39,299 nt of DNA from Sphingomonas sp. (lineage in GTDB: Bacteria > Pseudomonadota > Alphaproteobacteria > Sphingomonadales > Sphingomonadaceae). The DNA is taken from positions 1 to 39,299 of the forward strand of contig JAEKMC010000086.1 in assembly GCA_019508115.1 (NCBI GenBank), given 5' to 3'. The position numbers and the translations under genes are program-made. The notes below the pieces were generated by a model that was not told the origin of the DNA, ran no database searches, and was given only the letters and a program-made list of their open reading frames with translations. This document shows, piece after piece, positions 547 through 23,314 of the stretch; within the stretch, counting starts at the first letter, position 1, and the number at the start of each line of letters is the position of its first letter.

Positions 547-858
547 GTGGCCATTCAGCGCAGATCGTTCGGAGTTGCCGTATTGGAGCGGCTGCGGGCC
601 ACCGCATGCACCACGGCCTTCGGGCGGTTGGATGGCCACTTCAAGCGCGATTCAACGTTCATCCCAACAAAGGACCCCAACACTGAGCGGTGGCACTGTT
701 CCACCTCAAAGGGTGAGTGCGAGCTGCTGGTCAATGGCCCAAAGTGGTACGACACCAGAACCCGGGAGGGTGGAGGTGGCTCGATTGATCTAGCGATGCA
801 GTTGTACCGACTCGACTTCGTCGATGCGGTGAACCTCTTGGTGGGCAGGGGCCTATGA
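547..858 (+). CDS. Small protein resembling a DNA-primase CHC2-type N-terminal domain without obvious zinc ligands
   Basis: 103 aa; ...FIPTKDPNTERWHCSTSKGECELLVNGPKWYDTRTREGGGGSIDLAMQLYRLDFVDAVNLLVGRGL resembles the primase-type 'W...GGGAIDLVM' region; stop overlaps the start of the next gene (ATGA). Confidence 0.55.
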   Translation: MAIQRRSFGVAVLERLRATACTTAFGRLDGHFKRDSTFIPTKDPNTERWHCSTSKGECELLVNGPKWYDTRTREGGGGSIDLAMQLYRLDFVDAVNLLVGRGL

Positions 859-2039
859 ACCTCTACTTCAGCACCAAGGACTTTGCAGTCGACGGTCAGC
901 ACTACGAAGGCTTCCCGATTCTCGTGGACGCCTCGGGTGCAGTTGTTGAGGTCGCCCTGCTCTTCTTCGTGGACGACCTCCTCAACCGCGGTGGCGCGCG
1001 AGACCTGAAAACGTGGGCTGCCTATGGCCGGCACATGTACGACTACTTCGGCTACCTGGAGCAGCGTCTGGCCTGGGATCACATCCCAGCTGAGGGTAGT
1101 GGACAGCTCTCACCACTAGCTGCCTACGTGCGATGGTGCGACACCGACGTCCGCAATGCTCCTGGCTACGTCAACGACAAGCGCGCGACCATCGAGCGCT
1201 TCTACGAATGGGCAAAGCGGGTCGGGCGCATTGATGAGCTGCCCTTCACCCGAAGTGAAGTCATTTCATCTAGCGCTGATGGGGTGCTTGCGCACGCCTC
1301 GGCAACTCGAGGCCGACGGTCGGCGTCCAACCTGCATCTGCCTGAGAACGACGACGACGTGCCAGACATGGTGCTGTCGCGTGGCCAGATCGACGCAGCG
1401 TTTGAACACGCGACGAATCCAACGCACCGTGCCGTCCTGCACCTGAGCCTGAATGCCGGGCTGAGAGCGGAGGAGCTCGCGACGTTCCCGATGAAGTACG
1501 TCGTCGACACCAGCAGGCTATCGCCCAAGGTGAAGACGGTGCCCGTGACCCTTGATCCGAAGGACATGCACACCAAGAACGACAAGAAGCGAACAGTGCG
1601 ACTGTCGGTGCGGTGCATGAACCTGCTCTGGCAGTATCGAGAGGCCGTTAGGCCACGACTGAGGGCTCGGGCGAAGGGAGGCCCCGCCGACAGCGGAGTG
1701 CTGCTCCTGACCCGGTTTGGCGTGCCATTCGTCGCCGACGGCTTCGTGTCACCCATGGCGCGCCTAGGGAAGCGTGCTGGATTCCACATCCACCCGCACA
1801 TGCTCAGGCATACGTTTGCCACCCATACGCTAGCCTCCCTCGAGGACTTGAAGCGTGCCGGCAGGCTCAGGAGCTCGCCGCTCGTGGTTCTCAAGCGTCT
1901 TCTGGGCCATTCGAAGACAACCAACACAGAACGCTACCTGCATCTGCTGGATTCAATCGAGGACGTCTACGGCACCCGCTACCAAGCGGAGATTGACGAG
2001 TTGGCGCTGGGGTATCTGAACGAGGCAGAGAAGAAGTAG
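855..2039 (+). CDS. Tyrosine recombinase 1 (TnpA-like)
   Basis: 394 aa; catalytic motifs NAGLRAEEL, HPHMLRHTFATH, LLGHSKTTNTERYLHL present. Confidence 0.92.
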   Translation: MNLYFSTKDFAVDGQHYEGFPILVDASGAVVEVALLFFVDDLLNRGGARDLKTWAAYGRHMYDYFGYLEQRLAWDHIPAEGSGQLSPLAAYVRWCDTDVRNAPGYVNDKRATIERFYEWAKRVGRIDELPFTRSEVISSSADGVLAHASATRGRRSASNLHLPENDDDVPDMVLSRGQIDAAFEHATNPTHRAVLHLSLNAGLRAEELATFPMKYVVDTSRLSPKVKTVPVTLDPKDMHTKNDKKRTVRLSVRCMNLLWQYREAVRPRLRARAKGGPADSGVLLLTRFGVPFVADGFVSPMARLGKRAGFHIHPHMLRHTFATHTLASLEDLKRAGRLRSSPLVVLKRLLGHSKTTNTERYLHLLDSIEDVYGTRYQAEIDELALGYLNEAEKK

Positions 2040-3647
2040 ATGGCGAAGAAGAAGGACTTCGGGGTCGGAGGGCCGCCACCGAAGCCGGTGATCCCCATTT
2101 TCCCGACGAGTAGGACGCTCGAACGTGCGGCCGTGAGCGCTCTCGTGATCCCGCTACCTCATGGCGTCGACGCGGAGTTCGATTGGTGGGAGTACCTCGG
2201 GCATGGGTTCGATGACACGGTGTCGGCTATCACGTTGGAGATGCGCGCCATGGTTGCGCGCGGCAGACCGAAGCCCTTGGCCTTGAAAACCATCGCCAAC
2301 GGCGGCGTGATTCACTGGTTCAGGTTCTGCGTTGAGCGCGCCTCTGCGGGCACACCACCGACGTTGGACAGCATCAACGCCGAGACGATTGAGGTCTTTG
2401 CCGGTTGGCTCGCGACCCGTTTGAAGCCCGACGGCGAGCTGTGGTCGTTGAACACTGCGCGGACGGTCTACCAGAAGGTCAAGACCGTGCTGGAGGCACT
2501 TGCAGATCGCAAACTGCTGCCAAGGGATGGGCTGTTTCCTAAGAACCCTTTCCCGGGGGCCACTGACATCAACCGGCGCCGCAACCACATACTGCCTCTG
2601 TCTGATGGCGAACGAGAGCGCATCCTCCGCCCGCTGGCGATGCAGGTTGCCCAGGTGTACGACGGCACCCACCCCGGCACACCGTCGACGCAATTGGGGC
2701 TGTGCGTCTTTGCCATCTTCTTGAAGACCGGCGTCAACCCCACCCCGTTCCTCGAAATCCCTCGGGACCTGCAGAAGTGCTTCATGAGTCATCCGCGCGT
2801 GAACACGAGGATTCTGGTGACCTTCAAGCGCCGGGCGAACAAGCGCACCAAGACGCCGCTGGAGCCTGAGTCTCGGGTGGTGTCGCTGGACGTCTATAAG
2901 CTCTGTGAGCGCGTTCTGGGCCTCACCGAGGGTGCGGCCAAGCTGGCGGTTGGCACGAAGCTGGAGGGCTTGCTGTGGGTCTACGAGCTCGATGGTGCAC
3001 CCCGTGGCATGACGACCGAGACGCTGAGCGCCGTCGCCAACGCATTCACGTCGCGTCACGCCCTTGTGCGCGACGACGGCACCCGCCTGAAGATGAGCAG
3101 CCAGCTCTTCCGCAACACCAAGCTCAATCGCGTCTGGCGAGCGTCCAAGGGCGACCTGCTCGCAACGGCGCGAAGCGGATCGAACACGCCGACTGCCGCT
3201 CAGCGATACCTCGCAGTCACTCCCGACATGCTCGACGAACATCGCATGGCAGGCGAGGTGCTGGTGGACACCCTGTCGGCTGCCGGCCCGAGGGACAACA
3301 CGCCGCACAGCGGCTGCAAGGATGCCTTCAACGGCGAGTTCGCGCCGAAGGACGGCTCGCCTTGTGTCGACTTCCTCTCGTGCTTCCGATGCAAGTCTCA
3401 GGTCATCATCCAGGACGACCTCTACAAGCTGTTCTCGTTCTATTGGGCGCTGTTTTCGCAGCGGAGCCACATTGGCCAAGACAACTGGCGCAAGCTCTTC
3501 GGCTGGGTCACGAGGGTGATTGACCGCGACATCGCGCCGAAGTTCGATGCGACGGTCGTGGAACGAGAGAGGGCTCGCGCCCGCTCCGAACCACACCCGA
3601 TGTGGCGGTCTCCGTCGGTCTTAGCTGCACTGAGGTCCATCCAATGA
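2040..3647 (+). CDS. Tyrosine recombinase 2, degenerate catalytic motifs
   Basis: 535 aa; QLFRNTKLNRVW and SNTPTAAQRYL boxes with C-terminal Cys-rich segment (GCKDAF...PCVDFLSCFRCK); immediately follows recombinase 1 and overlaps recombinase 3. Confidence 0.8.
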   Translation: MAKKKDFGVGGPPPKPVIPIFPTSRTLERAAVSALVIPLPHGVDAEFDWWEYLGHGFDDTVSAITLEMRAMVARGRPKPLALKTIANGGVIHWFRFCVERASAGTPPTLDSINAETIEVFAGWLATRLKPDGELWSLNTARTVYQKVKTVLEALADRKLLPRDGLFPKNPFPGATDINRRRNHILPLSDGERERILRPLAMQVAQVYDGTHPGTPSTQLGLCVFAIFLKTGVNPTPFLEIPRDLQKCFMSHPRVNTRILVTFKRRANKRTKTPLEPESRVVSLDVYKLCERVLGLTEGAAKLAVGTKLEGLLWVYELDGAPRGMTTETLSAVANAFTSRHALVRDDGTRLKMSSQLFRNTKLNRVWRASKGDLLATARSGSNTPTAAQRYLAVTPDMLDEHRMAGEVLVDTLSAAGPRDNTPHSGCKDAFNGEFAPKDGSPCVDFLSCFRCKSQVIIQDDLYKLFSFYWALFSQRSHIGQDNWRKLFGWVTRVIDRDIAPKFDATVVERERARARSEPHPMWRSPSVLAALRSIQ

Positions 3648-5527
3648 GCGCTGCCCTGGCCTATGAGCTACATGCGGCTGCGTTGGAGCTGTCGCCGGCG
3701 GAGCGAGACGACCTCGTCATCTCGTACGTTCAGCTGGCGGGCGGCGAGCGCATTCCGCTCTCTCGCTACGGTGACCCCGTCTGGAACTACACGCCATTCT
3801 TCCCCGGCGCAGCCCGCGGCAAGCAGGACAAGGAGATTGTCTGGGCCAAGACTCCTGACGAGTGGGTTCCGTCGATGCGAAGCGCAGCCGCTGCGCTCAC
3901 ATACCGCAAAGCTCCTGGCGGTGTCCGACTGGACCCGTCGACGATCCCCAAACGGCACGTCATCCTGAATGCCTTCGCGAAGTGGGCCAGCTCAGAAGGC
4001 ATCAGGCGCTTCGGCGACGTCCGCGCTGCCGACTTGACCAGGTACATCCAGAAGCTTCGCGACGACGGTCTCTACGACCGTAGCCTGGCCAGCCACATTG
4101 CCATCCTGCGCAAGGTACACGAGCTTCGGGGAGCAATGCTCGACAGCTTGACCGACGAAGCTGCGACCGCGCTGCGGTTTGACCAGCTCGGCGCGCTCTG
4201 GGAGCCTGACGCGGTCAACGACCGCCGTACTGAGCTCATCCCGCTCGCTGAGGCGTCAGCATTGTTCGTGGCCGCCAGAGAGCACCTGACCAGGGCACCA
4301 ACCCTACTGCGTCTGCGTGACGACCTGGCTGAACAGTGGGAGGCCGCAAAGGTCACCTGGGACCGGAGGGTATGGGGTGACGACGTCAAGAAGCCGGCGG
4401 TGCGAGCTGCTGGCTTCCGAGACGCCCTTGAGTTCGAGTCCGCCGTCAGTGACATCCGGACTGCGGCCTACATCGTCCTCGGCATCACCACGGGTTGCCG
4501 CGTCCATGAGCTTGGCGAGGCGGAGGTGGGCTGCGTCTATCCGGACACGGTCGACGGTGAGACGTATTGGTGGCTGAAGGCCGCGACGCGCAAGATCGGC
4601 GACGGACCGATGCGTTGGCTGGCACCTGAAGTGGCCAAAGAGGCCTCCGACGCCCTCGAATGGCACTCTGCCCCCTTGCGAGCCCGCATCGCCGCTGAGC
4701 TGCCTGTCATGCGAGAGCAGTTCACAACCGCAACCACAGAAGCGGAAAGAGCCAGGCTGGCGGCGCATATTCTTGAGCTTGAGCGCAATGCCGACCGCTT
4801 GTTCCTGAGCGAGTCGACGCGGGGCGTTGTCTCAACCGACACCAAGTCGCACAACAAGCAACTAAAGGCCTTCGCTGCACGCAAGGGCATCAAGCTCGGC
4901 GTGCCGCTTGCCACCCACCGGTTCCGCCGCACCTACGCCGTTATCGTCGTGCATCTGAACAAGGGGCCGCGCATCGACATGGTGACGCTGCAGCGCCACT
5001 TCAAGCACGCGAGCGTGCTCATGACGGAGTGGTACGCCGAGCTGTCCGAGACCGACAGGGAGCTCTACGAGCTCATCGAGACGGAGACAGGCTTCTTCGA
5101 CATGGCGCTGGTCGACCACTGGCTGGATGGATCGACGCCGCTGGCCGGCGGCCTGGGTGCCCGAATCAAGGCGTACGCAGGCAAGCATCACCAGCCCATC
5201 TTCTTCAAGACCCGGCGCGAGTTCGTTGACAGCATCCGGGAGGGCATCAACATCCGGAGCACAGGGCACAGCTGGTGCCTGGCAGAGGCGAAGGACTGTG
5301 GCGGGCAAGGGCTTTTCGATGCTCCCCAGTGCGGCAGTTGCGGCAACGGCGTCATCGACGACAACTTCCGAGAGGTGTGGCAGAACCTTCGTCAGGACCA
5401 CGAGGACTTGTCCAAGCTCGACGACATTGGGCCTGGCGGCAGGGCAAAGGCGGCGAAGGGCCTCGCAGCGGCCGAAGCCGTCCTCGCACAGCTTGAACAA
5501 CCTGACGACGAGACCGCCGATGTCTGA
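3644..5527 (+). CDS. Tyrosine recombinase 3 (TnpB-like)
   Basis: ATG at 3644 (ATGA overlap with upstream stop). Motifs TTGCRVHELGEAEV, ATHRFRRTYAV, RHFKHASVLMTEWYAEL; C-terminal Cys-rich CGGQGLFDAPQCGSCGNG. Confidence 0.88.
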   Translation: MSAALAYELHAAALELSPAERDDLVISYVQLAGGERIPLSRYGDPVWNYTPFFPGAARGKQDKEIVWAKTPDEWVPSMRSAAAALTYRKAPGGVRLDPSTIPKRHVILNAFAKWASSEGIRRFGDVRAADLTRYIQKLRDDGLYDRSLASHIAILRKVHELRGAMLDSLTDEAATALRFDQLGALWEPDAVNDRRTELIPLAEASALFVAAREHLTRAPTLLRLRDDLAEQWEAAKVTWDRRVWGDDVKKPAVRAAGFRDALEFESAVSDIRTAAYIVLGITTGCRVHELGEAEVGCVYPDTVDGETYWWLKAATRKIGDGPMRWLAPEVAKEASDALEWHSAPLRARIAAELPVMREQFTTATTEAERARLAAHILELERNADRLFLSESTRGVVSTDTKSHNKQLKAFAARKGIKLGVPLATHRFRRTYAVIVVHLNKGPRIDMVTLQRHFKHASVLMTEWYAELSETDRELYELIETETGFFDMALVDHWLDGSTPLAGGLGARIKAYAGKHHQPIFFKTRREFVDSIREGINIRSTGHSWCLAEAKDCGGQGLFDAPQCGSCGNGVIDDNFREVWQNLRQDHEDLSKLDDIGPGGRAKAAKGLAAAEAVLAQLEQPDDETADV

Positions 5528-6049: not shown

Positions 6050-7741
6050 TTACCGGCTCAGCGCCTGCGACGGTGCTGGTCCTGCGATGGAAACCGGAGT
6101 GGGTGGCGCCGCAATCGCGATGTGGCTGGTGCTCGGCAACTTGACAGCAGTCTCCGGCTCAACTTCTTCGAAGCCGAACAGGCCCTGCGGGATGCTGCGT
6201 TTGCTGAGTGGGTTGATAACCGCATCGGGGAACGCCATCGGCGCCTGCAGGAAGTGCTGATCGACCACCTTCCGCAATGAAGGGTCCTTGACCAAGCCGA
6301 CCAGGTGGTCGATGTCAGCGGCGTAAAGCACCTCGATGAAGTAGCCCTTCCCAGCCGCCCGCTCCTGGGCCACTGCAACCATGGCCCTGGCTTCCGTGCT
6401 CAACTCGCCGGTCACCCAGAGTTCGAATCGAAGGTCGAGCTTGGACAGCTCGTTGTTCTTGCGTGTCTGTGAGAGGACGACCGGCAGGCGCTTGTTCAGC
6501 CATTTGTCGACCTCGTCGTCGCTGAGCAGGTTGCCAGGCACTAGGCCCTTGCACTCGATGAACCGGATGTAGCGGTTCTTGACGATGACCCGTACATCGA
6601 CCTCCGCCACGTCCTTGCCGCCCTCACGATAAATCTTATTGAGGGTGATGTCCGCCGGCGGCTCAAGTACGCGAACGACTTCCGCCACGACGAACTCGAA
6701 GAGGGCCCCTCGCAGGGTGCCCGCCGCACCTTCCGCCTTGCCCAAGCGCTCGAACAGCTGGCTGAACAGGACCGGGTCGACAGCCTTTTCCGCCGCCTGA
6801 CTCAGGGTCCTGAGCAACTCCAGCAGAGCCTTGGCCACGTCGGTCCCAAACAGAGATTCGGGCGTCGCTGGAACGATGCCCGCCCTACGGATGAGGTCCA
6901 GCGCACCTGGCGAATAGCGGTTGGCGACGAAGAACTGCAAGCAACGGCCCATCCCACGGAACTGCCGCAGCGTGGCGCACTTGTAGAGAAACGGGCTGAC
7001 GTCGTCGACACCCACCACCTCGGTCATGAGCACGTCGATGACAAGGAAGCCGGGCTTAGGCTTCGCCGAGCTTGACCAGTCAGCCAGCGGGCCGAGGAAG
7101 GATGGCGCGGACAAGTCCCAGCTGAACGCGCCGACCAACGGGGCCGTCCCCGTCCTGTCAGCCCTCAGCTTGAACGAGTTGAAGCTGCCGAGTCCGAGCT
7201 TGGCTGCCCACTCCTGGATCGACTGCAAGAGCACCCTCTCGGCGATGAGCCGAGCACGAACTGCGGGATAGCGGTCGTCAAGGTATGAATCGCCACGGGC
7301 GAATGCCACGCAGGGCCCGACGCCGGGCATCTCAACCATTTGCAGCAACTCCGCATCCACGAGCCGCTTGACGACTTCATCGCTGGAAATCTGCCGCTGC
7401 CCATCTGATGTGCCTGCAGCCGCCGAGAAGTGCATGGCCGGAACGATCCCGCCCCGGGCAGTGAGCGCCTTGATGGCACGGGCATACGCACCGTTTCCAT
7501 CCATCAGGGCCGCGGCCAGGCGATCCCAGAACTTCGGGCTGCCGTACTGGCTTTCGAGGTACAGGAACTGGGCGCCACGCGGAAGCACCAGATTCACTGC
7601 ACGGACCGACAACGTGCGTCGCTCGATGCGCTTGCGAGCAGCCGCGGGCGTGATGTTCAGCTTGGCTGCCAACGCTGCGGCCAGAGAACCACTGGTCATC
7701 GGACCATTGGCGGCTAAGAGGGCTGCTATCTCGACGCTCAC
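6050..7741 (-). CDS. Putative PD-(D/E)XK nuclease-like defence protein with N-terminal winged-helix-like region
   Basis: 563 aa; GALFEFVVAEVVRVL...GKDVAEVDVRVIVKNRYIRFIECKG resembles a E..D..ExK nuclease core; GTG start. Confidence 0.6.
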   Translation of the reverse strand: MSVEIAALLAANGPMTSGSLAAALAAKLNITPAAARKRIERRTLSVRAVNLVLPRGAQFLYLESQYGSPKFWDRLAAALMDGNGAYARAIKALTARGGIVPAMHFSAAAGTSDGQRQISSDEVVKRLVDAELLQMVEMPGVGPCVAFARGDSYLDDRYPAVRARLIAERVLLQSIQEWAAKLGLGSFNSFKLRADRTGTAPLVGAFSWDLSAPSFLGPLADWSSSAKPKPGFLVIDVLMTEVVGVDDVSPFLYKCATLRQFRGMGRCLQFFVANRYSPGALDLIRRAGIVPATPESLFGTDVAKALLELLRTLSQAAEKAVDPVLFSQLFERLGKAEGAAGTLRGALFEFVVAEVVRVLEPPADITLNKIYREGGKDVAEVDVRVIVKNRYIRFIECKGLVPGNLLSDDEVDKWLNKRLPVVLSQTRKNNELSKLDLRFELWVTGELSTEARAMVAVAQERAAGKGYFIEVLYAADIDHLVGLVKDPSLRKVVDQHFLQAPMAFPDAVINPLSKRSIPQGLFGFEEVEPETAVKLPSTSHIAIAAPPTPVSIAGPAPSQALSR

Positions 7742-8227
7742 ATGTCCACCTTGCCGGATGTCACACAGCGCTATTTATAACCGGTACTGATATATGCCTC
7801 GGCACGTTTTTTTCGCCAAGGCAGAGAAGCGCCTTAACAAAATCAACAACTTAGCAGATGGCAACGGACCTCGGATGACATGCCCGATGTCACACTCGTC
7901 GTCGGGAGACGTTCCGTATCGTACTGATCTGTACTGAGCACGATACGAATACAGTATCAAACGGGCTTGCTTGCGATGCCGGCCGGCCAGTCTGGACCGG
8001 CACCCTGTCGACGCTTTAGTTCAGGTTGAAAGCCGCATCATCAGTTGGCCCAGTCGGACCGCCGCCCTCAGGCTCACGGTCGATGCCGCACAGGAGAGCC
8101 GGACAAGCGTGTCGTCTCCGCACCGACCGAAGTCCTTCCCGGGCGTCAGCGCGACCCTGGCAGGGGCAGGCCGATGCGCTCAAGACCAGCGAGCACCAGC
8201 TCCCGGCGGGCCGCGAACTCCTCTCGT

Positions 8228-8959
8228 CTAACTGCCATTGCCCAATCGCAGCGGATGGTCGGCGGGTAGCGCTGCAACACACGTTGCGAGCTTGCCCTCT
8301 AGCTCGGCGACCAGCGGCTCCAGGTGCGCTACGACCAGTTGGGGAGAGTTCAGCACTTCTGGGAAGACCCACGATGACGCCGCCCGGGACATGTAGTCGG
8401 CTTCGAACGGGTAGACGCCCCTGAAAGCCTTCAGGATGGTGTTTTCCGCGAGCTTGATGACGGCATCGCCCGAGTATCCAAATTCCCCGACATCAGGCCG
8501 TAAGCCGTGCTCGATGCGGAGGGACTTCGGAAGCTCCCAGTAGGTGGCTCTGCATTTCTGCGCCCGGTCATTGAGCTCGGCGAGCCGCATGGCGATGACC
8601 TCGGCGCTCGCCGCGGCTTCAGACTCGGCCAGGGACTGCAGATGGACGTTGGTGAGCGCTGCGGCCTCCTTCGCACCGATCTGGAAGCCACTCTCGGACA
8701 GCAGCATGCCCCGGTCAGCGCCGGTGTCGGCGACTATCTCGCGCAGGGCGAGTACGTGTAGCTTGTTCACCGGGCTCTGCCAGCACTTGCACTCGACGAT
8801 CCAGGTCACCTCGAAGCCCACATGGTGCGACTTCACGAGCACGTCGACGTCGTGCTTCGTTCTGGCGCCCTGCACCGTAACGTCAGTTTGTGCATCCATC
8901 CCCAGCGACCGAAAGAAGGCCGCAGCTTCCTCTTGATAGTCCTGCCACGCAGCAGCCAT
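8228..8959 (-). CDS. Mrr-like restriction endonuclease
   Basis: 243 aa; KHDVDVLVKSHHVGFEVTWIVECKCWQSPVNKLHVLALREIVADTGADRGMLLSESGFQIGAKEAAALTNVHL is typical of the Mrr_cat family. Confidence 0.75.
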   Translation of the reverse strand: MAAAWQDYQEEAAAFFRSLGMDAQTDVTVQGARTKHDVDVLVKSHHVGFEVTWIVECKCWQSPVNKLHVLALREIVADTGADRGMLLSESGFQIGAKEAAALTNVHLQSLAESEAAASAEVIAMRLAELNDRAQKCRATYWELPKSLRIEHGLRPDVGEFGYSGDAVIKLAENTILKAFRGVYPFEADYMSRAASSWVFPEVLNSPQLVVAHLEPLVAELEGKLATCVAALPADHPLRLGNGS

Positions 8960-9020
8960 GTGTCGCCCTCAAGCTGTATAGAACCGGATGCTACGAGACC
9001 GCCTGCTAGAGTCAGCCTTG

Positions 9021-9125
9021 AAGCCGGCGTTGCCGGCTTTCCTGCTTTTCCTCCCTGAGCAGGAGCTTCGGCTCGATGACAGCGACGAGGCTTTGCCGCC
9101 CCGGCATGTCCGGGGCGTTCTTTTT
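9021..9125 (+). terminator. Tandem terminator-like hairpins in the leader of the DUF4031 operon
   Basis: AAGCCGGC-gtt-GCCGGCTT (9021-9039) and CGCCCCGG-catgt-CCGGGGCG followed by TTCTTTTT (9097-9125). Confidence 0.6.
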
Positions 9126-9203
9126 GGCCGACGCGCGGCCCGAGAAGCTGGCCTCCGCATGCCGCTTAACAGCCGTGTTACATTTTTCCTAGGGGGGAGA
9201 AAA

Positions 9204-9506
9204 TTGGTATACGTCGACGATGCCGATGTGCCTAAATACGGTCGTGGCTGGTGCCATTTGACGGCGGACAGCCTTGGTGAGCTTCATGCCTTCGCAGCTC
9301 GCATTGGCCTACCTGCCCGCGCCTTCCATCGCGGCGCGCGCCACCCCCACTACGACATCACAGCCGACCAGCGGCTGAACGCCCTGCGCAGCGGAGCGCA
9401 TCCCGTCAGCCCTCGAGAGGTCGTGCGCATCGCCAGGCAGGTTTTCGTTCCCCCGCCAGCCGTCGCAAGTTCTCCCAGCGACGCGCAGCTTGCCCTGTTC
9501 GCCTAG
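9204..9506 (+). CDS. DUF4031 domain-containing protein
   Basis: TTG start proposed at 9204 behind AGGGGGGAGA; LVYVDDADVPKYGRGWCHLTADSLGELHAFAARIGLPARAFHRGARHPHYDITADQRLNALRSGAHPVSPREV. The listed ORF start at 8988 would run through the terminator-like hairpins. Confidence 0.75.
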   Translation: MVYVDDADVPKYGRGWCHLTADSLGELHAFAARIGLPARAFHRGARHPHYDITADQRLNALRSGAHPVSPREVVRIARQVFVPPPAVASSPSDAQLALFA

Positions 9507-9520
9507 GGCTTCAGCGCATC

Positions 9521-10537
9521 GTGTACGTCCGCGCCGACTCCCTGGATGACCTTCTGGCCAAGGTTTATCGGCAGCTTCTGGCACGCGGCACGCGCATCGA
9601 ACCCACGAAGGGCCCGGCTCGCGAAATCTACGGCGCGCTGCTGAAGCTGTCAGCCCCGCGCCTTCGCCTCAGCCGCACCGAGTCTCGCGGCATCCTTTTC
9701 AGCGCGCTTGGCGAACTGCTGTGGATGCTGGCCGGAAGCAACGAGCTCGACTTCATCGAGCACTACATCGCCGAGTACAAGAACCTATCCGACGATGGCC
9801 TGACCATCTACGGCGCGTACGGACCCAGGATGTTTGGCAAGCGCCCGAACGATCAGTTGGCGCGCGTCATTTCGTCGCTGAAGGGTAAGTCCGACTCGCG
9901 CCAGGCGGTGATCCAGCTGTTCGACCGCCGTGACACGCTCGAGTACCACAGGGACATCCCCTGCACCTGCACGATGCAGTTCGTCATACGGGATCGACGG
10001 CTGCACATGCTGACCTCCATGCGGTCCAACGACGCCTGGCTCGGTCTACCGCACGACGTGTTCGCGTTCACCATGATCCAGGAGCTGGTAGCGCGCTCGC
10101 TGGGCGTCGAATTGGGGGAGTACCGGCACTCCGTCGGTAGCCTGCATCTGTACGAGCGAGACGACAAGAAGGCCATTCGGTATCTCGACGAAGGGTGGCA
10201 GCCCAGGAGGCCTATGCCGCCAATGCCCCAGGGCGACCCTTGGCCTTCCATTGGGAGATTGCTGGAATTCGAGGAGGCCGTGCGGAATGGCGATGCAAGC
10301 GCTTTGGACCCACGGGAGTCCATGGAGCCCTACTGGGCCGACCTAGCTACCTTGCTGGCTATCTACAAGGCAGGCAAGACGACGGGCAACCAGAACGAAA
10401 TCAAACGGCTGAAGCGGCGCCTGACGGACGAGGTCTACGCCATGTACATCAACAAACGCTACGGGATGGTGCCTTCGGTCAAGGACCAGGCCACGATCTT
10501 CGACGGCGGCACCGACGCATCAAAGGCTGCGGCATGA
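9521..10537 (+). CDS. Thymidylate-synthase/dCMP-hydroxymethylase-fold enzyme, predicted dCMP-specific
   Basis: 338 aa, GTG start; LGELLWMLAGSNELDFI, IPC148TCTMQF, MRSNDAWLGLPHD179VFAF, GSLHLYERD motifs of the TS fold. Confidence 0.88.
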   Translation: MYVRADSLDDLLAKVYRQLLARGTRIEPTKGPAREIYGALLKLSAPRLRLSRTESRGILFSALGELLWMLAGSNELDFIEHYIAEYKNLSDDGLTIYGAYGPRMFGKRPNDQLARVISSLKGKSDSRQAVIQLFDRRDTLEYHRDIPCTCTMQFVIRDRRLHMLTSMRSNDAWLGLPHDVFAFTMIQELVARSLGVELGEYRHSVGSLHLYERDDKKAIRYLDEGWQPRRPMPPMPQGDPWPSIGRLLEFEEAVRNGDASALDPRESMEPYWADLATLLAIYKAGKTTGNQNEIKRLKRRLTDEVYAMYINKRYGMVPSVKDQATIFDGGTDASKAAA

Positions 10538-11448
10538 ACGCGCAACAGAAGGAACAGCGGGCGCTCGCCCTGGAAGCCCAGCTTCTCGCCTTTCACCAGA
10601 ACAACATGCCGCTGAACGGCGTCGCATCGCCCGAGAACATGCTTGCCTTCGTCTGGCAACTCATCGACAGCATTCAACGGGTGTCGTATGTGACGGCCGT
10701 CCGCGCCCGTGCCGTCAGCGCTGAGCGATCCGATCCGCGCAGCCCCTCCTTTGACCCCATCAGGGCCGCCGTGGCTGCAGGGCAAACTGAGGAGGCCTTC
10801 TGGCTCGTCTTCCTGGCCACACACTGCGGGTACAACCTTCGGACCAAGTGGCTGCTTTCAGCTGAGCTCTATGGCGCTTCTGAAGCCGCGCCGTGGACAT
10901 GGGTGCGCGTCCTGAATGATCCCGAAGCCTATGCTGACTGGGTCGAAGACAACTACGACACGTTCACCGGCAAGTTCGGCAACCACCGCAAGTACGAGTC
11001 GCTCAAGCCCGGCCCCAAGGGGACGGGCGCCGTAGTCCGCAGCTATGTCGACTGGATCACTGGCTTCGGCTCGCACGCGGCAATGGTTGCTCAAGCGCAG
11101 GCGCGAGCGAACGGGAATGCACGTCGCGCCTTCAACGTGCTCTATGAGCAGATGCGCGCGGTCATGCGCTTCGGCCGCACGGGCCGCTTCGACTACCTCA
11201 CCATGCTCAGCAAGGTCGGGCTCGCCAACATCGAAGCGGACTCGACATACATGAACGAGGCGACCGGGCCGAAGCGCGGCGCACGGCTGCTGTTTGACGG
11301 CCAGATCGACTCCAACACCGGCGCCCGCGTCTTGGAGGCGCGCGTGGCCGCCCTTGAGCAGCATCTCGGCGTCGGCATGCAAGTGATGGAAGACGCCATG
11401 TGCAACTGGCAGAAGAGCCCGAACCTCTACCAGGCCTTCCGAGGCTAG
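10534..11448 (+). CDS. Possible alpha-glutamyl/putrescinyl thymine pyrophosphorylase-like protein
   Basis: 304 aa, starts at ATGA overlapping the upstream stop; mostly helical sequence with ...GRFDYLTMLSKVGLANIEADSTYMNEATGPKRGARLLFDG; family assignment by recall of motif and TS linkage, not by search. Confidence 0.45.
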   Translation: MNAQQKEQRALALEAQLLAFHQNNMPLNGVASPENMLAFVWQLIDSIQRVSYVTAVRARAVSAERSDPRSPSFDPIRAAVAAGQTEEAFWLVFLATHCGYNLRTKWLLSAELYGASEAAPWTWVRVLNDPEAYADWVEDNYDTFTGKFGNHRKYESLKPGPKGTGAVVRSYVDWITGFGSHAAMVAQAQARANGNARRAFNVLYEQMRAVMRFGRTGRFDYLTMLSKVGLANIEADSTYMNEATGPKRGARLLFDGQIDSNTGARVLEARVAALEQHLGVGMQVMEDAMCNWQKSPNLYQAFRG

Positions 11449-11450
11449 GC

Positions 11451-12527
11451 CTACTCAGCCCAGGAATAACGCTTCTTGAGGAAGTTCAGCTTGTCCTGAC
11501 GTACCAGCCCGCGATGCTGAAGCTGTCCGACCACGATGCCGGGCGAGATGGAGAGGTTCTTCGCGAACCGCATGATGTTCCGGTACTCATGGGGTAGCGC
11601 CCGCAGGGCCGCCTCTTCCGACGGCGGGATGAGCACTTGGCCAGCGAACTTGTTCGCTTCGGCTTCTTCGTGGCTATCCAGCTCACGCCGGTCGGACCAC
11701 TCAAGGAACAGACGGTCCTAATGCAGCACCAGGTGGCCGGCTTCGTGGAAGAACGTGAACCAGAAGCTGTCGTCGCGTAGGTAGCGAACGCTGAGCTGCA
11801 AGATTGCCTTGCCATTCTTGACGCGGGTCGCGCCGCTGGCAGGACAGCCCTTCGGCGCACGCACGATGACAACTGCGACGCCACAAGCAGCGCACTGCTC
11901 TTGGAGCTGAGGGATGAACTCGGCAGGCTCGCGGACACGGGTCAGCGACTTCAAGGACGGCAACAAGCGTTCAAAGCACTCGCGCGACCAGGTGCCCACC
12001 GACAGCTCCGCCGCAGCCAGTTCGCCCTGTCTGAGCCAAGCAGCGACCGACGCTGATTGCGCCGTGAATACGGGCGAGGTGCGATATGCGGTAAGGCCGG
12101 CTCGATCCGAGAGCCAGTTGTCGCGCCACTCGTCAACGGTGCTGACTTCGAAGAACTCCAGGGCATGCCGTAGCTTCTCGCCCGTCGAGGTTGCTGTCTT
12201 CAACCACCCGTACCTGGCCATGTCCGCAAACGGAAGGCTTGAGACCCATTGCCTGCTGTCGTCCTGCAGCGCCTGGACGTCACGCCTGTATTGCGCCTCG
12301 CGTGCCAGCCAGAAACGCACGCTGGCCCCAACGACACCAGCCAAGCCTTTGGCACGAGCCGCAGTGATCGGCAGTTCGCCGTTGAAGAGCTGCGTCAAGT
12401 CCTCTGGGGGCAGCCCAACCGCCTGCGCGAGGTCGTCAGACCGAAGGTTCTTCTTGGCGGCCAGCTGCCGGACAGTCTCGCCCGGTGGGGACGCCCATGC
12501 TGGGGAGAACTCGGCAGAGCGCGTCAC
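11451..12527 (-). pseudogene. HigA-like HTH fused to ImmA/IrrE metallopeptidase, interrupted by an in-frame TAG at 11718-11720
   Basis: XRE-type N-terminus, HEAGHLVLH* then in the same frame DRLFLEWSDRRELDSHEEAEANKFAGQVLIPPSEEAALRALPHEYRNIMRFAKNL... Confidence 0.8.
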
Positions 12528-12856
12528 AGGTCGCCTCCAATGTGGATGACCTTCAGCCTCGAGACCTTCGTCCAGTCGACGGCTTCACCGCTCATCGGCA
12601 CATGCTGGTGGTTCACTTCGCAGTAGAGGTGTCGCCCTTCACTTAGCCCAAACCGTATCAGTCCCACCTTCGACCCGCAATTCTCGAATTCCAGCCCCAT
12701 CTCCACCAGCTCAGCGACCGTTTCAACGGCCTCCAGGTCGGCGAGATACCTACGCAATGCGGCGGCGGCACTTTCCCCAAGCTCACGCTTGGCCCTCGCG
12801 GGGCTCTCACATGTCGAACGCAACTCTTTTGACCGGAACGCGACCTCAAGCCCCAT
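12524..12856 (-). CDS. HigB/RelE-like toxin
   Basis: 110 aa; MGLEVAFRSKELRSTCESPARAKRELGESAAAALRRYLADLEAVETVAELVEMGLEF...VDWTKVSRLKVIHIGG, overlapping the start of the HTH-ImmA gene. Confidence 0.65.
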   Translation of the reverse strand: MGLEVAFRSKELRSTCESPARAKRELGESAAAALRRYLADLEAVETVAELVEMGLEFENCGSKVGLIRFGLSEGRHLYCEVNHQHVPMSGEAVDWTKVSRLKVIHIGGDL

Positions 12857-12906
12857 GGGGCGATTGTCGACGAACAGCGAGGTGCTCGACGGATAGCAGC
12901 CGCGCC

Positions 12907-14319
12907 TCAGAACAGCTTGCTGTTGATGTCACTGACCATGTTCAACCCGCCGCGATGGTCACTGCCAGTCTTCGGAAAGGCGAAGGTGTACCGTGGGTCG
13001 CCCTGGAAGACGGCCTTCCAGTGCTTGCCGTCATCCGACAGGTCGAAGCCCAGCCGCGTGAGCGCCGTTTTTGTCTTGCCGTCCATGCTCCGGTAGTCCC
13101 GCAGTAGTCCCTTCAACTCCTCGCGCATCTTTTCGGCTTCGCCGCCCGGCTCATTCGCCTCAAGTAGGTCTCGCAGGACATGATCGCGACGGCTGCCGGG
13201 CTGCGCCACACGGTCGAGTGCGTCTTTGAGCGCCGCCGAGACGATGTCTCGCACCTCGCCGTCGTAGAGGTCGGCTTCGTCGCCGTGTTTCAGCAGGCCT
13301 GCCTCGCTGGACTGCTCAATGCTGCGCAGCCGGCGTAGATCGGCCTTCAGCCGCTCAATCTCCTGCCCGCGCTCGGTGATGACGAGTTCCTTGGCCTTGC
13401 TCTCATCGTCGAACGCGGAGATGAACTTGTCCACCTCGGTCGATCCTGCCAGCTTCAGCTGCTCGTACGTGTTCTTGGCCACGGCCTCCTTGAGGTGGGC
13501 CCAGGTGCAATCGGAGCTTTGTCGTCGGTTGGAAAGGGCAACGCGGATGTCCTTGGCGACGTCAATGGCCAAGGCCCTAGACGCCCGGTCGCTGTCACCG
13601 TCGTCCGAGAAATAGCTGTTTCGTCGGTCCGAGTTCGGCCAGTACACGCCTACCGTTCCGCCAAACACGTTCCTGGACTTCGTGAGGCGCTTGACCCCGT
13701 AGGAGAAGGCCCGGCTCGGCTCCACGACCACATGAGCCAGGCCGCCGACGTAGCGTGCTAGCTCGTCAGGGTCGACCATCGGTTGATCGTCTACCCCCGC
13801 GCTGACGTACACGATGGGCAGCGAATTGCGCGCCGTTCCGAGGATCAGGCTGGCTGCCACGTTCTCTTCACCGGCAGATAGCTTGAAGGGACGGTCCGTC
13901 ACGGGGACTTCTCCGTCGTCCCCACCGCCAAGCTCGGTAAGAGCCTGCTTGATGAAGTAGGGCTTCTTCGGCGGAGGCAAGCGAACCTGCGTTGTCAGCG
14001 CCTCGCACACCACCTCCATGCGCAAGAGGTGATGCCCATCGGTCTTCAACGACACGATGGAGGTTGTCCAAGCCAGCCCGTCCTCGGTGCGTTCGTAGCG
14101 AAGGCCTCCAATCTCTCCGGCAGCCGTCGTGGCATGAGCCAGCACGACGTGCTCAACGCCCGCATTGACCGTCAACTCGCCGTTGCTGGGGAAGGTATCG
14201 AGGGCGTCGCTGGCGAACGCTGTGTGTGGACTACCGGTAATCCATCGACAGGCCAGCCGAGCAACATCAGCGACCGCCCATTTGGGGTTGACGGGAAACT
14301 CAGCGGCGAAATTGGCCAT
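12907..14319 (-). CDS. Uncharacterised coiled-coil protein with HicA-like C-terminal segment
   Basis: 470 aa; central LPIVYVSAG...ELARYVGGLAHVVVEPSRAFSYGVKR...GGTVGVYWP, a coiled-coil-like stretch, and C-terminal LTRLGFDLSDDGKHWKAVFQGDPRYTFAFPKTGSDHRGGLNMVSDINSKLF. Confidence 0.7.
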   Translation of the reverse strand: MANFAAEFPVNPKWAVADVARLACRWITGSPHTAFASDALDTFPSNGELTVNAGVEHVVLAHATTAAGEIGGLRYERTEDGLAWTTSIVSLKTDGHHLLRMEVVCEALTTQVRLPPPKKPYFIKQALTELGGGDDGEVPVTDRPFKLSAGEENVAASLILGTARNSLPIVYVSAGVDDQPMVDPDELARYVGGLAHVVVEPSRAFSYGVKRLTKSRNVFGGTVGVYWPNSDRRNSYFSDDGDSDRASRALAIDVAKDIRVALSNRRQSSDCTWAHLKEAVAKNTYEQLKLAGSTEVDKFISAFDDESKAKELVITERGQEIERLKADLRRLRSIEQSSEAGLLKHGDEADLYDGEVRDIVSAALKDALDRVAQPGSRRDHVLRDLLEANEPGGEAEKMREELKGLLRDYRSMDGKTKTALTRLGFDLSDDGKHWKAVFQGDPRYTFAFPKTGSDHRGGLNMVSDINSKLF

Positions 14320-19578: not shown

Positions 19579-20817
19579 CGGCATGATGGCCTGCAAGACG
19601 ACGCTGACGGCCGAGGACCTGCCCGACAACCTCGGCCCGCTGCGTGCGGCCATCGAGCGCGCCGTACCGCACGGCCGCCAACCCGGCAACCGCGACCCGG
19701 GTGCCTGGCAGAAGCCGCCCGGCTCGGTCAACACGGCCTGGGCGCAGCTGGAGCCCGAGTTCACCGAGCTCTGTCGCGACTATCCCAAGCTGGCCAAGAC
19801 CAACCACATCCAGCACCTGGGCACGCTGGGCTCGGGCAACCACTTCATCGAGGTCTGCCTGGATGAAGCCGGCGCGGTGTGGTTCATGCTGCACTCGGGC
19901 TCGCGCGGCGTGGGCAACTTCATCGGCACGATGTTCATCGAGCTGGCCAAGCAGGACGCGATGCGCCACCAGGCGAACCTGCCGGACCGTGACCTGGCCT
20001 ACTTCGAGGAGGGCAGCCGCTACTTCGGCGACTACGTGCGCGCCGTAGGCTGGGCGCAGAAGTTCGCGGCCACCAACCGCGAGGTGATGATGAAGCGCGT
20101 GATCGAGGCGGCGAAGACGGTAATCCACAAGAACTTCCAGGCCCACACCGAGGCGGTGAACTGCCACCACAACTATGTGCAGAAGGAAACGCACTTCGGG
20201 CAGGAGGTCTGGCTGACCCGCAAGGGCGCGGTGAGCGCCAAGGCGGGGCAGCTGGGCATCATCCCCGGCAGCATGGGCGCGCGCAGCTACATCGTGCGCG
20301 GCAAGGGCAATGCAGACAGCTTCGAGAGCTGCTCGCACGGCGCCGGCCGCGTGATGAGCCGCGGCGATGCCAAGCGCCAGTTCACGCTGGCCGACCACCG
20401 CGCCGCGACCGAGGGCGTCGAGTGCCGCAAGGACAAGGACGTCATCGACGAGACGCCCGCGGCCTCGGGCCTGTTCACGCCACGGCAGTGGGTCGCGAAG
20501 GCCGTCCGCCAGGGGGCAATCAAGGCGCAGCGCGCCGCCCGCACTCGTGTGCGGGCAAGCGCTGCAACGCCGAGTGGCCCCTGGCGGACGGCCTTCCCTT
20601 CGGGTTGTGGCCAGAAAGCCCGCGCGCGGCGTTGCAATGCTCGCCGGGTGTCCAACCCGGCTCCGATTTGCGCCTTACTGGCGGGCTTTCTGGCCACAAC
20701 GCGACCCACTGCCGTGGCGTGAACAGGCCCCAGGACATCGACGCTGTGATGGCTGCCCAGCGCGAGCTGGTGGACGTGGTGCACACCCTCAAGCAGGTGG
20801 TCTGCGTGAAGGGTTAG
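19579..20817 (+). pseudogene. rtcB: RtcB RNA ligase, C-terminal portion, itself interrupted near its 3' end
   Basis: GMMACKTTLTAEDLPDNLGPLRAAIERAVPHG...GSRGVGNFIG...RKGAVSAKAGQLGIIPGSMGARSYIVRGKGN...ECRKDKDVIDETPAA, then an insertion, then DIDAVMAAQRELVDVVHTLKQVVCVKG* in another frame. Confidence 0.9.
20467..20730. mobile_element. ~264-bp palindromic MITE-like or structured repeat element inside rtcB
   Basis: 31-bp perfect terminal inverted repeats GGGCCTGTTCACGCCACGGCAGTGGGTCGCG (20467-20497 / 20700-20730) with two internal hairpin arms (stems 20497-20515/20578-20596 and 20604-20623/20681-20700). Confidence 0.88.
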
Positions 20818-20838
20818 CCAGGCAAAGCGCACCGCTTC

Positions 20839-20875
20839 AGGGCGCCCAACTCCGGTTGGGCGCCCTTTCTTTTGT
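20839..20875 (+). terminator. Rho-independent terminator downstream of rtcB
   Basis: AGGGCGCCCAAC-tccg-GTTGGGCGCCCT followed by TTCTTTTG. Confidence 0.88.
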
Positions 20876-20961
20876 CCCTGCAAAAGCGGTCAACGGCGAG
20901 CGAGCAGGCAAGCCCATCGACACAAGCCGGCACTACCATTGCCGACCGTTACGAGGTCGCC

Positions 20962-21834
20962 ATGAAACTGCTCGTCAAATTCAATCTGGTCTATCTGCTG
21001 GTGATGAGCCTGGGCATCGCCGTCAGCGGCTACATCGCCCGCAGCCTGCTGCAGGACAACGCGAAGCAGGAGGTCGTCAGCAGCGCGCAGATGCTGATGG
21101 AGAAGGCACTGGCTGTTCGCGCCTACACCAACACGCAGATCAAGCCGCTGTTGGTCTCGCAGATGGCCAACGAGTTCCTGCCGCAGACGGTGCCCAGTTA
21201 TTCGGCCACCGAGGTGCTGGGCACGCTGCTGGCCAAGCATCCCGAGTTCGCCTACAAGGAGGCGACGCTCAATCCCACCAACCCGCGCGACCGCGCGACG
21301 AGCTGGGAGGCCGACATCGTCGGGCAGTTCCGCAGCCAGGCCGAGCTGAAGGAAACCAAGGGCGAGCGCGATACCCCTGCCGGCCCATCGCTGTACATCG
21401 CCCGGCCGCTGCGCATCACGGACCCGGCCTGCCTGGCCTGCCACAGCAGCGTGGACGCCGCGCCCGCCACCATGGTCGCCAAGTACGGCCCCGCCAACGG
21501 CTTCGGCTGGAACCTGAACGAGGTCATCGGCGCGCAGATCGTGTCGGTGCCGCTGGGCGTGCCGCTGCAGCGCGCCAACGAGGTGTTCAAGGTCTTCATC
21601 ACGTCGCTGGTCGGCGTGTTTGTCGTCGTCGGCATCGTGCTCAACCTGATGGTGTGGATGCTGGTCGTGCGCCCGGTCACGCGCCTGTCGGCGCTGGCCG
21701 ACCGCGTCAGCCAGGGCGACCTGGAGGCGCCCGAGTTCAGGACCGGCGGCCGCGACGAGATCGCCACGCTGTCCGACTCCTTCTCGCGCATGCGCGCCAG
21801 CGTCGTGCAGGCCATGAAGCTGCTGGACGCATGA
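20962..21834 (+). CDS. DUF3365 (Tll0287-like) heme-binding sensor with HAMP domain
   Basis: N-terminal TM, RPLRITDPACLACHSS (CxxCH), second TM, then VVRPVTRLSALADRVSQGDLEAPEFRTGGRDEIATLSDSFSRMRASV HAMP. Confidence 0.82.
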   Translation: MKLLVKFNLVYLLVMSLGIAVSGYIARSLLQDNAKQEVVSSAQMLMEKALAVRAYTNTQIKPLLVSQMANEFLPQTVPSYSATEVLGTLLAKHPEFAYKEATLNPTNPRDRATSWEADIVGQFRSQAELKETKGERDTPAGPSLYIARPLRITDPACLACHSSVDAAPATMVAKYGPANGFGWNLNEVIGAQIVSVPLGVPLQRANEVFKVFITSLVGVFVVVGIVLNLMVWMLVVRPVTRLSALADRVSQGDLEAPEFRTGGRDEIATLSDSFSRMRASVVQAMKLLDA

Positions 21835-21847
21835 GTCATTTCACGGC

Positions 21848-23314
21848 ATGAGTGACCCCAAGAAGCACCCGACGCAGCTCGGCAAGTACCGCATCACCGA
21901 AGTGCTCGGTGAGGGCGCGATGGGCGTCGTCTACAAGGGCTTTGACCCCGACATCCAGCGCACCGTCGCGCTGAAGACCATCCGCCAGCAGATCGACGCC
22001 GACGACGACAGCCCGGGCGGCGCCGCCTCGCGCTTTCGCAACGAAGCCCAGGCCGCCGGCCGGCTGGGCCACCCGGGCATCGTCGCCGTCTACGACTTCG
22101 GCCGCGACCAGCAGATCGCCTACATCGCGATGGAGTTCGTCGAGGGCCGGTCGCTGGCGAGTTATCTCAGCGCCAAGCTGCGCTTCACCGACACCGACAT
22201 CCCCGGCATCATGAGCCAGCTGCTCGATGCGCTGGGGCATGCGCACGAGAACGGCGTCTGGCACCGAGACGTCAAGCCCAGCAACATCATCATGACGGCC
22301 AGCGGCCGCCTGAAGGTCGCCGACTTCGGCATCGCGCGCATCGAGAGCACCAGCCTCACGCAGACCCACTACATGGTCGGCACGCCCAGCCACATGGCGC
22401 CCGAGCAATTCCTCGGCAAGCCCATGGACCGGCGCGTGGACATCTATGGCGCCGGCGTCGTGCTCTACCAGCTGCTGACCGGCCGCGCGCCGTTTGCCGG
22501 CACGACCGAGGCGCTGATGTACAAGGTCGTCAACGAAGACCCCATGCCGCCGTCCATGGTCGAAGGCGCCGACCGCCCCGGCTGGTTCGACGCCATCATC
22601 CGCCGGGCACTCGCCAAGCGCGCGACCGACCGCTTCGCCACCGCCTACGAGTTCAAGCAGGCCCTCGTCACCGGCGCCGGACGCAGCATCGACGACAGCA
22701 GCTGGGAACGCACCCTCATGATGGCTCCGCCGCGGGCCGCGCAGCCGCCGCAGTCGCCTCCCACCTTCGCGCCGCCATCCACGGCCGGGGGATCCAGCGG
22801 TGCACCGCCTGCCACGCACTGGGACAAGGCCCAACTCACGCAGGCCGAGCAGACGCTGGCCAAGCATGTCGGGCCACTCGCCAGCGTCCTCGTGCGCCGC
22901 GCCGCACGCGAATGCCAGGACTTGAACGAGCTCTACAGCAAGCTGGCCGAACAGGTCAGCGACCCACGGGCGCGCGACGCCTTCTTGGGTCAGGCCAGCT
23001 TGGTCACCGGCGGCAGCGTGAAGACGGCGGGCAGCACCGCCGGTGCGGCGCCCGGCTCCAAGGGCACGAAAGGCTCGGCGGGTTCGGCCGGTTCAGCCTC
23101 GGCCACCGCCATCGGCGGGCCGCTGAACGAGGCGGTCATGGACAAGGCCCAGGTGTTGCTGGCCCAGCATGTCGGGCCCATCGCCAAGGTGCTGGTCAAG
23201 CGCGCAGCGGCCGGGACGGACAGCCGGGCGGTGTTCTTCAATCGGCTGGCGGAGGCGGTGAGCGATGCGAAGGCGAGGGAGAAGCTACTGAAGGAGCTCG
23301 GCCGATTGCCCTGA
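21848..23314 (+). CDS. Serine/threonine protein kinase
   Basis: GKYRITEVLGEGAMGVVYKGFD, VWHRDVKPSNIIM, VADFGIAR, GTPSHMAPEQ motifs; two related C-terminal repeats (AKHVGPLASVLVRRAA / AQHVGPIAKVLVKRAA). Confidence 0.93.
   Translation: MSDPKKHPTQLGKYRITEVLGEGAMGVVYKGFDPDIQRTVALKTIRQQIDADDDSPGGAASRFRNEAQAAGRLGHPGIVAVYDFGRDQQIAYIAMEFVEGRSLASYLSAKLRFTDTDIPGIMSQLLDALGHAHENGVWHRDVKPSNIIMTASGRLKVADFGIARIESTSLTQTHYMVGTPSHMAPEQFLGKPMDRRVDIYGAGVVLYQLLTGRAPFAGTTEALMYKVVNEDPMPPSMVEGADRPGWFDAIIRRALAKRATDRFATAYEFKQALVTGAGRSIDDSSWERTLMMAPPRAAQPPQSPPTFAPPSTAGGSSGAPPATHWDKAQLTQAEQTLAKHVGPLASVLVRRAARECQDLNELYSKLAEQVSDPRARDAFLGQASLVTGGSVKTAGSTAGAAPGSKGTKGSAGSAGSASATAIGGPLNEAVMDKAQVLLAQHVGPIAKVLVKRAAAGTDSRAVFFNRLAEAVSDAKAREKLLKELGRLP

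Follow-up and report, generated by a model that had tools for sequence, protein, structure and literature searches.

A predicted deoxycytidylate hydroxymethylase coupled to an aGPT-Pplase3/ADDT-family transferase in a mobile bacterial cassette

The open reading frame at positions 9521-10537 of the window (the whole stretch of 39,299 nucleotides that was analysed) very probably encodes a deoxycytidylate (dCMP) hydroxymethylase of the thymidylate synthase (TS) fold, as judged from its sequence. The gene is part of a discrete, conserved cassette situated at about 8.2-12.9 kb of the window, which the first-pass annotation had missed. The explanation that best accounts for the whole, and in which we have moderate confidence, is that this enzyme and a predicted transferase form the modification arm of a widespread, mobile defence cassette.

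The TS-fold gene lies on the forward strand, starts with GTG and codes for 338 amino acids. It matches the Pfam family Thymidylat_synt (PF00303) at 1.3e-23. A sequence search of the PDB gave MilA, a CMP 5-hydroxymethylase, as the best match among solved structures (3e-48), whereas the best thymidylate synthase reached only 9.5e-19. The earlier assignment of the protein to the TS fold is thus confirmed. In the plasmid records of cassette homologues the gene is labelled thymidylate synthase. Comparison with three relatives at the codon level gave a dN/dS of 0.08-0.15, showing that the gene is under purifying selection.

Upon alignment with T4 gp42 (gene 42 of NC_000866), the columns of Cys148, Thr149, the MR-S169-ND motif and Asp179 coincide between the two proteins. 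The first-pass annotation had equated Cys148 (codon 9962-9964) and Asp179 (codon 10055-10057) with the residues of the same numbers in gp42, and both the codons and the correspondence are correct; the identical numbers are a coincidence of N-terminal length, but the match of columns is not. Cys148, Thr149, Ser169 (codon 10025-10027) and Asp179 are invariant in all 86 cassette TS sequences that could be aligned, so that the catalytic cysteine is retained together with the conserved core of the fold. This invariance was repeated by 26 further homologues, taken from IMG/VR contigs and one relative genome. With the window protein these make up a second set of 27 rows, every one of which has Asp179 (27/27). 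Asp179 is therefore a constrained feature of the family and not a chance substitution. It occupies the position of Asn177 of the E. coli enzyme, as had been proposed, and differs from the Asn of canonical thymidylate synthases. A change from Asn to Asp at this position shifts the preference from dUMP to dCMP and tracks with phage contigs that have modified cytosine (PMC8670742).

The residues expected to discriminate between the two cytidylates are of the deoxyribose type. Position 127 (codon 9899-9901) is Arg in 77 of the 86 sequences, the window protein included, and Lys, as in MilA, in the other 9. In MilA, Ala176 and Lys133 permit the use of CMP, its preferred substrate; the A176S substitution alone shifts the activity towards dCMP, and the A176S/K133R double substitution abolishes CMP turnover (PMC5175136). 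The window protein has Ser169 and Arg127 in place of the ribose-type Ala/Lys pair of MilA and BcmA, favouring dCMP over CMP, and dCMP can be predicted as the substrate with good confidence.

Position 145 (codon 9953-9955) is Asp in the window protein and Asp or Glu in 75/86 sequences, the acidic residue being lost in 11/86. The equivalent Asp145 of T4 gp42, three residues N-terminal of Cys148, activates water for hydroxymethylation, whereas thymidylate synthases have Leu there; T4 Ser94 is the other half of the published hydroxymethylase signature (PMC6400193). The column of Ser94 is occupied by Gly98 in the window protein (Gly in 75/86). Of the Ser/Thr-x-Tyr signature (Ser94-x-Tyr96 in T4) the tyrosine is conserved as Tyr100, with Gly98 instead of the serine, and the published signature is consequently only partly present. 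Asp145, standing at the water-activating position, favours hydroxymethyl over methyl transfer, and hydroxymethylation is the likely reaction. Every sequence feature behind the earlier claim of a cytidylate (dCMP or CMP) substrate rather than dUMP holds. The predicted product, hydroxymethyl- or methyl-cytidylate, is likewise supported, with hydroxymethyl favoured by Asp145 although the Ser94 half is absent.

T4 gp42 shares with the window protein the Cys, Ser169, the MRSND motif, Asp179, Asp145 and the phosphate-site Arg in matching columns. The two proteins are nevertheless only 26% identical over 129 amino acids, and the window protein is about 90 amino acids longer. Moreover, gp42 is a phage enzyme, whereas the window gene belongs to a bacterial mobile cassette, in which the partner is aGPT-Pplase3 instead of a glucosyltransferase and no dCTPase gene recurs among the loci. 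The MilA/BcmA CMP 5-hydroxymethylases are closest in solved structure, have an Asp for cytosine and are similar in length, but differ in the Ala/Lys pair.

The TS gene and the next gene (10534-11448, forward strand) share the sequence ATGA as stop and start, giving a translational overlap. This second gene encodes a predicted base transferase, which matches PF18746 at 9e-94 and PF18724 at 1e-78, with 314 bits for aGPT-Pplase3 and 265 bits for ADDT (Pfam gathering cut-offs 25 and 26.2). Its AlphaFold model is all-helical and confident (pLDDT 95). Neither a sequence search nor a fold search with the model found a relative in the PDB, and the predicted chemistry therefore rests on the family name. 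The aGPT-Pplase and ADDT families are named for the transferases of phage thymidine hypermodification, which act on DNA bases. The PADLOC models gave no match to the TS protein or the aGPT protein, and a search of 50,697 phage records turned up no relative of aGPT-Pplase3. The HMUDK-associated helical domain PF18723 had no match in the host genome, but as it had none in the control genomes either, this negative carries no information.

Phage thymidine hypermodification employs a TS-like dUMP hydroxymethylase, a 5-hmdU DNA kinase and an aGPT-Pplase/ADDT protein. The cassette resembles it in that a TS-fold hydroxymethylase is paired with a member of the aGPT-Pplase/ADDT families. It differs in having the cytosine-type Asp, in lacking a recurring kinase, in being bacterial, and in using a transferase clade that is absent from the phage records searched.

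Convergent to the transferase gene is a gene for an HTH-ImmA/IrrE (M78) metallopeptidase (11454-12527, reverse strand), which matches the PADLOC model PD-Lambda-2_B at 8.5e-15; the intact homologue of Pantoea matches the same model at 8e-30. In the window copy the reading frame is broken by a TAG at 11718-11720, immediately behind the metal-binding motif HEAGHLVLH. Beyond it the frame stays open and family-like, and the gene is intact in the near relatives L008 and L009. The TAG may be a real nonsense mutation, in which case the window copy may be partly inactive, or an error of the metagenome-assembled sequence. Upstream of the peptidase gene lies a gene for a small protein (12527-12856, reverse strand) that is kept beside ImmA in nearly all loci and has a dN/dS of 0.12-0.29. 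It has no Pfam, PDB or PADLOC match; its description as HigB-like is based on where it lies and on visual inspection of the sequence. The pair recalls PD-lambda-2, a validated abortive defence system that resembles a toxin-antitoxin pair and consists of a HigB-like protein followed by an Xre-HTH/ImmA peptidase; in that system B is toxic when overexpressed and A relieves the toxicity (PMC9519451). Of its A, B and C components, the cassette has a B-like protein, an A-like protein by position, and no recurring C-like neighbour, the TS and aGPT genes being coupled instead.

The boundaries of the cassette were defined by comparison with L008 and L009, which share positions 8164-12907 of the window and nothing beyond. 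The unit is hence made up of the Mrr, DUF4031, TS, aGPT, ImmA and small-protein genes. The genes at 6050-7741 and 12907-14319, once taken as candidate parts of the cassette, were dropped since the shared block ends at about 8164 and 12907. With the aGPT protein as query, 155 relatives were found, and the genome contigs of the best 80 were used as cassette loci. These best 80 of 155 span Proteobacteria, Acidobacteriota, Bacteroidota, Chloroflexota, Planctomycetes, Gemmatimonadota and Myxococcota. Every one of the 80 has an ImmA relative, and the TS gene lies upstream of aGPT except in two loci, on contigs that stop before that point. The order TS-aGPT-ImmA-small is also found in 25/25 IMG/VR contigs, within the stretch that each contig covers, and the same gene order occurs on plasmids of Roseomonas, Pantoea, Leptospira, Rathayibacter and Agrobacterium. 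In a sample of 399 genomes from the phylum, aGPT-Pplase3 occurs in four, the window's own included. Among the genes that recur in the cassette loci there is no nucleotide or DNA kinase.

The flanks of the cassette are rich in defence genes only sometimes. The 116 flanking ORFs include several integrases and three Mrr genes, with single matches to Gabija-like, SoFic, methyltransferase and PD-T4-6 models; they were counted without a control set, and any enrichment in defence islands is thus anecdotal.

Three further genes accompany the four-gene core of TS, aGPT, ImmA and small protein in part of the loci. A DUF4031 protein (8988-9506, forward strand; PF13223, 3.7e-27) is encoded directly upstream of the TS gene in the window and recurs in a subset of the cassettes, in many loci, either upstream of TS or between TS and aGPT. 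Divergent from DUF4031 and TS is a gene for an Mrr-type restriction endonuclease (8228-8959, reverse strand; PF04471, 8e-14), which is contained in the block common to the window and L008/L009. An Mrr relative is found near the cassette in 8 loci among the best 80 of 155 relatives. In about thirty of these 80 loci (L019-L025, L027, L029-L031, L036-L038 and others) an extra gene is inserted between TS and aGPT, its product having the motifs GLNPSNREF...GxNHNxQSS and no convincing Pfam match. The model of this protein (pLDDT 93) matches family 4 UDG, UdgX and TDG with a probability of 1.00, although with moderate TM-scores of 0.4-0.5 on the query. The top fold match is 4ZBY, the structure that was likewise reported to match Brig1 best; Brig1 is a glycosylase that excises alpha-glucosyl-hmC (PMC11078745). 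A UDG-fold glycosylase beside a cytosine hydroxymethylase is as expected if the modified cytosine ends up in DNA. The presence of the UDG-fold gene is scattered on the aGPT tree, and it was rejected as a clade marker.

In the mechanism that we propose, the TS-fold protein would act as the first enzyme of the cassette. Cys148 would add to C6 of dCMP, methylene-THF would give the one-carbon unit, Asp179 would select cytosine over uracil, and water activated by Asp145 would complete the formation of 5-hydroxymethyl-dCMP. This nucleotide, or hydroxymethylcytosine once in DNA, may then be taken by the aGPT-Pplase3/ADDT transferase and derivatised on the 5-methylene group of cytosine, by analogy with phage thymidine hypermodification but with cytosine as the base. 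Activation is the weakest link of this mechanism. In phage thymidine hypermodification the hydroxymethyl group is phosphorylated in DNA by a kinase before the transferase acts. With no kinase recurring in the cassettes, either a host kinase serves or aGPT-Pplase clade 3 works differently. The modification arm would be paired with the convergent HTH-ImmA/IrrE and HigB-like module related to PD-lambda-2, and the ImmA/small pair would control or execute the response. Where present, the UDG-fold glycosylase or the Mrr nuclease may act on DNA in a way that depends on the state of the modified base.

Other substrates and products have to be weighed against hydroxymethylation of dCMP. That the protein is an additional or diverged thymidylate synthase with dUMP as its substrate, as the annotation of the plasmid records would have it, is very improbable. 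Every homologue has Asp at the Asn177 position, and the same genome carries a housekeeping ThyA, whose fragment on contig C247 has retained the residues typical of TS (CH...RSCD...FAFN), with Asn instead of Asp. Nearly all relatives likewise have one TS match at only about 23-33% identity, as expected of ThyA, and the thymidylate synthase reading was rejected on Asp179 and the separate host ThyA. A MilA-like enzyme making 5-hydroxymethyl-CMP for a small molecule (an antimetabolite or a signal), and not for modified DNA, would agree with MilA being the closest solved relative, with the Lys at position 127 of the nine sequences, and with the lack of a DNA kinase. The mildiomycin pathway also has an N-glycosidase, which might parallel the UDG-fold protein of about 30 loci. 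Against this stand the invariant Ser169, given the effects of the MilA substitutions, and the prevalence of Arg127; furthermore, the transferase family takes its name from a reaction on DNA bases, and the glycosylase shares its fold with DNA glycosylases. We consider a CMP enzyme unlikely. Reductive transfer to the same substrate, giving 5-methyl-dCMP as in phage XP12, is slightly less probable still. The exchange of Asn for Asp in an ordinary TS is enough to create a dCMP methylase, according to work as cited in PMC8670742, and the loss of T4 Ser94 in the cassette enzymes fits such a reaction. However, the acidic residue at position 145 is that of a hydroxymethylase, the closest characterised relatives, MilA and T4 gp42, are both hydroxymethylases, and a methyl group would offer the aGPT/ADDT partner no hydroxyl to activate.

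A different question is what the cassette does for its host, and here a selfish addiction module has to be considered, in which the TS/aGPT product or a DNA mark silences the ImmA/small pair, loss of the cassette kills, and any benefit to the host is secondary. Its patchy distribution, its carriage on plasmids and viral contigs, its sharp edges and the likeness to PD-lambda-2, with a toxic B part and a rescuing A part, all agree with such a role. The toxicity of the ImmA/small pair is nevertheless putative, by likeness to PD-lambda-2, and the nuclease and glycosylase genes that some of the loci carry point to DNA as a target and not to addiction alone. Addiction as the main function thus appears rather doubtful, and the cassette, with dCMP hydroxymethylation as its predicted first step, probably works in anti-phage defence.

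A defence role for related genes has also been predicted by DefensePredictor (2026), which flagged an aGPT-Pplase system as defensive by prediction only; a figure legend of that report lists UDG and HTH domains together with aGPT-Pplase, and the likeness to the present cassette is one of the domains named in that legend (PMC13092281). TS domains are called defensive in the same source, the TS-containing system validated there being a different one, with TS, dNMP kinase and 5hmdU kinase domains (PMC13092281). A cassette combining a cytosine-type TS, a PD-lambda-2-like pair and a glycosylase was not found described in the literature covered.

Hydroxymethylated cytosine made in the nucleotide pool is known from phages, T4 disguising its DNA in this way, and from antibiotic pathways. 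It is a tentative idea that many bacteria carry a 5-hydroxymethylcytosine pathway of their own on a mobile cassette, with hydroxymethyl-dCMP being converted through aGPT-Pplase3 into a new hypermodified cytosine. This base might serve to mark self or be a poison base directed at phages, working alongside an ImmA/HigB-like trigger and either a glycosylase of Brig1-like fold or an Mrr nuclease. If true, the conservation of the cassette across bacterial phyla would mean that bacteria themselves use the phage trick. There would be a new cytosine hypermodification to seek by LC-MS and a defined set of partners, and an all-helical transferase family without a solved structure or, as far as found, a tested function would gain a role.

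Some other features of the window lie outside the shared block. Positions 855-5527, in the lower-GC half of the contig, hold three ORFs in a row, of which two encode tyrosine recombinases, and resemble a recombinase-trio element. The gene at 6050-7741 encodes a 563-amino-acid protein that has no family match and whose C-terminal half is nuclease-like by eye, and the protein encoded at 12907-14319 has a weak match (1e-10) to the PADLOC model HEC-07. At 19583-23314 an RtcB ligase gene is followed by an unknown ORF and a gene for a Ser/Thr protein kinase, and beyond these the GC content rises to about 70%.
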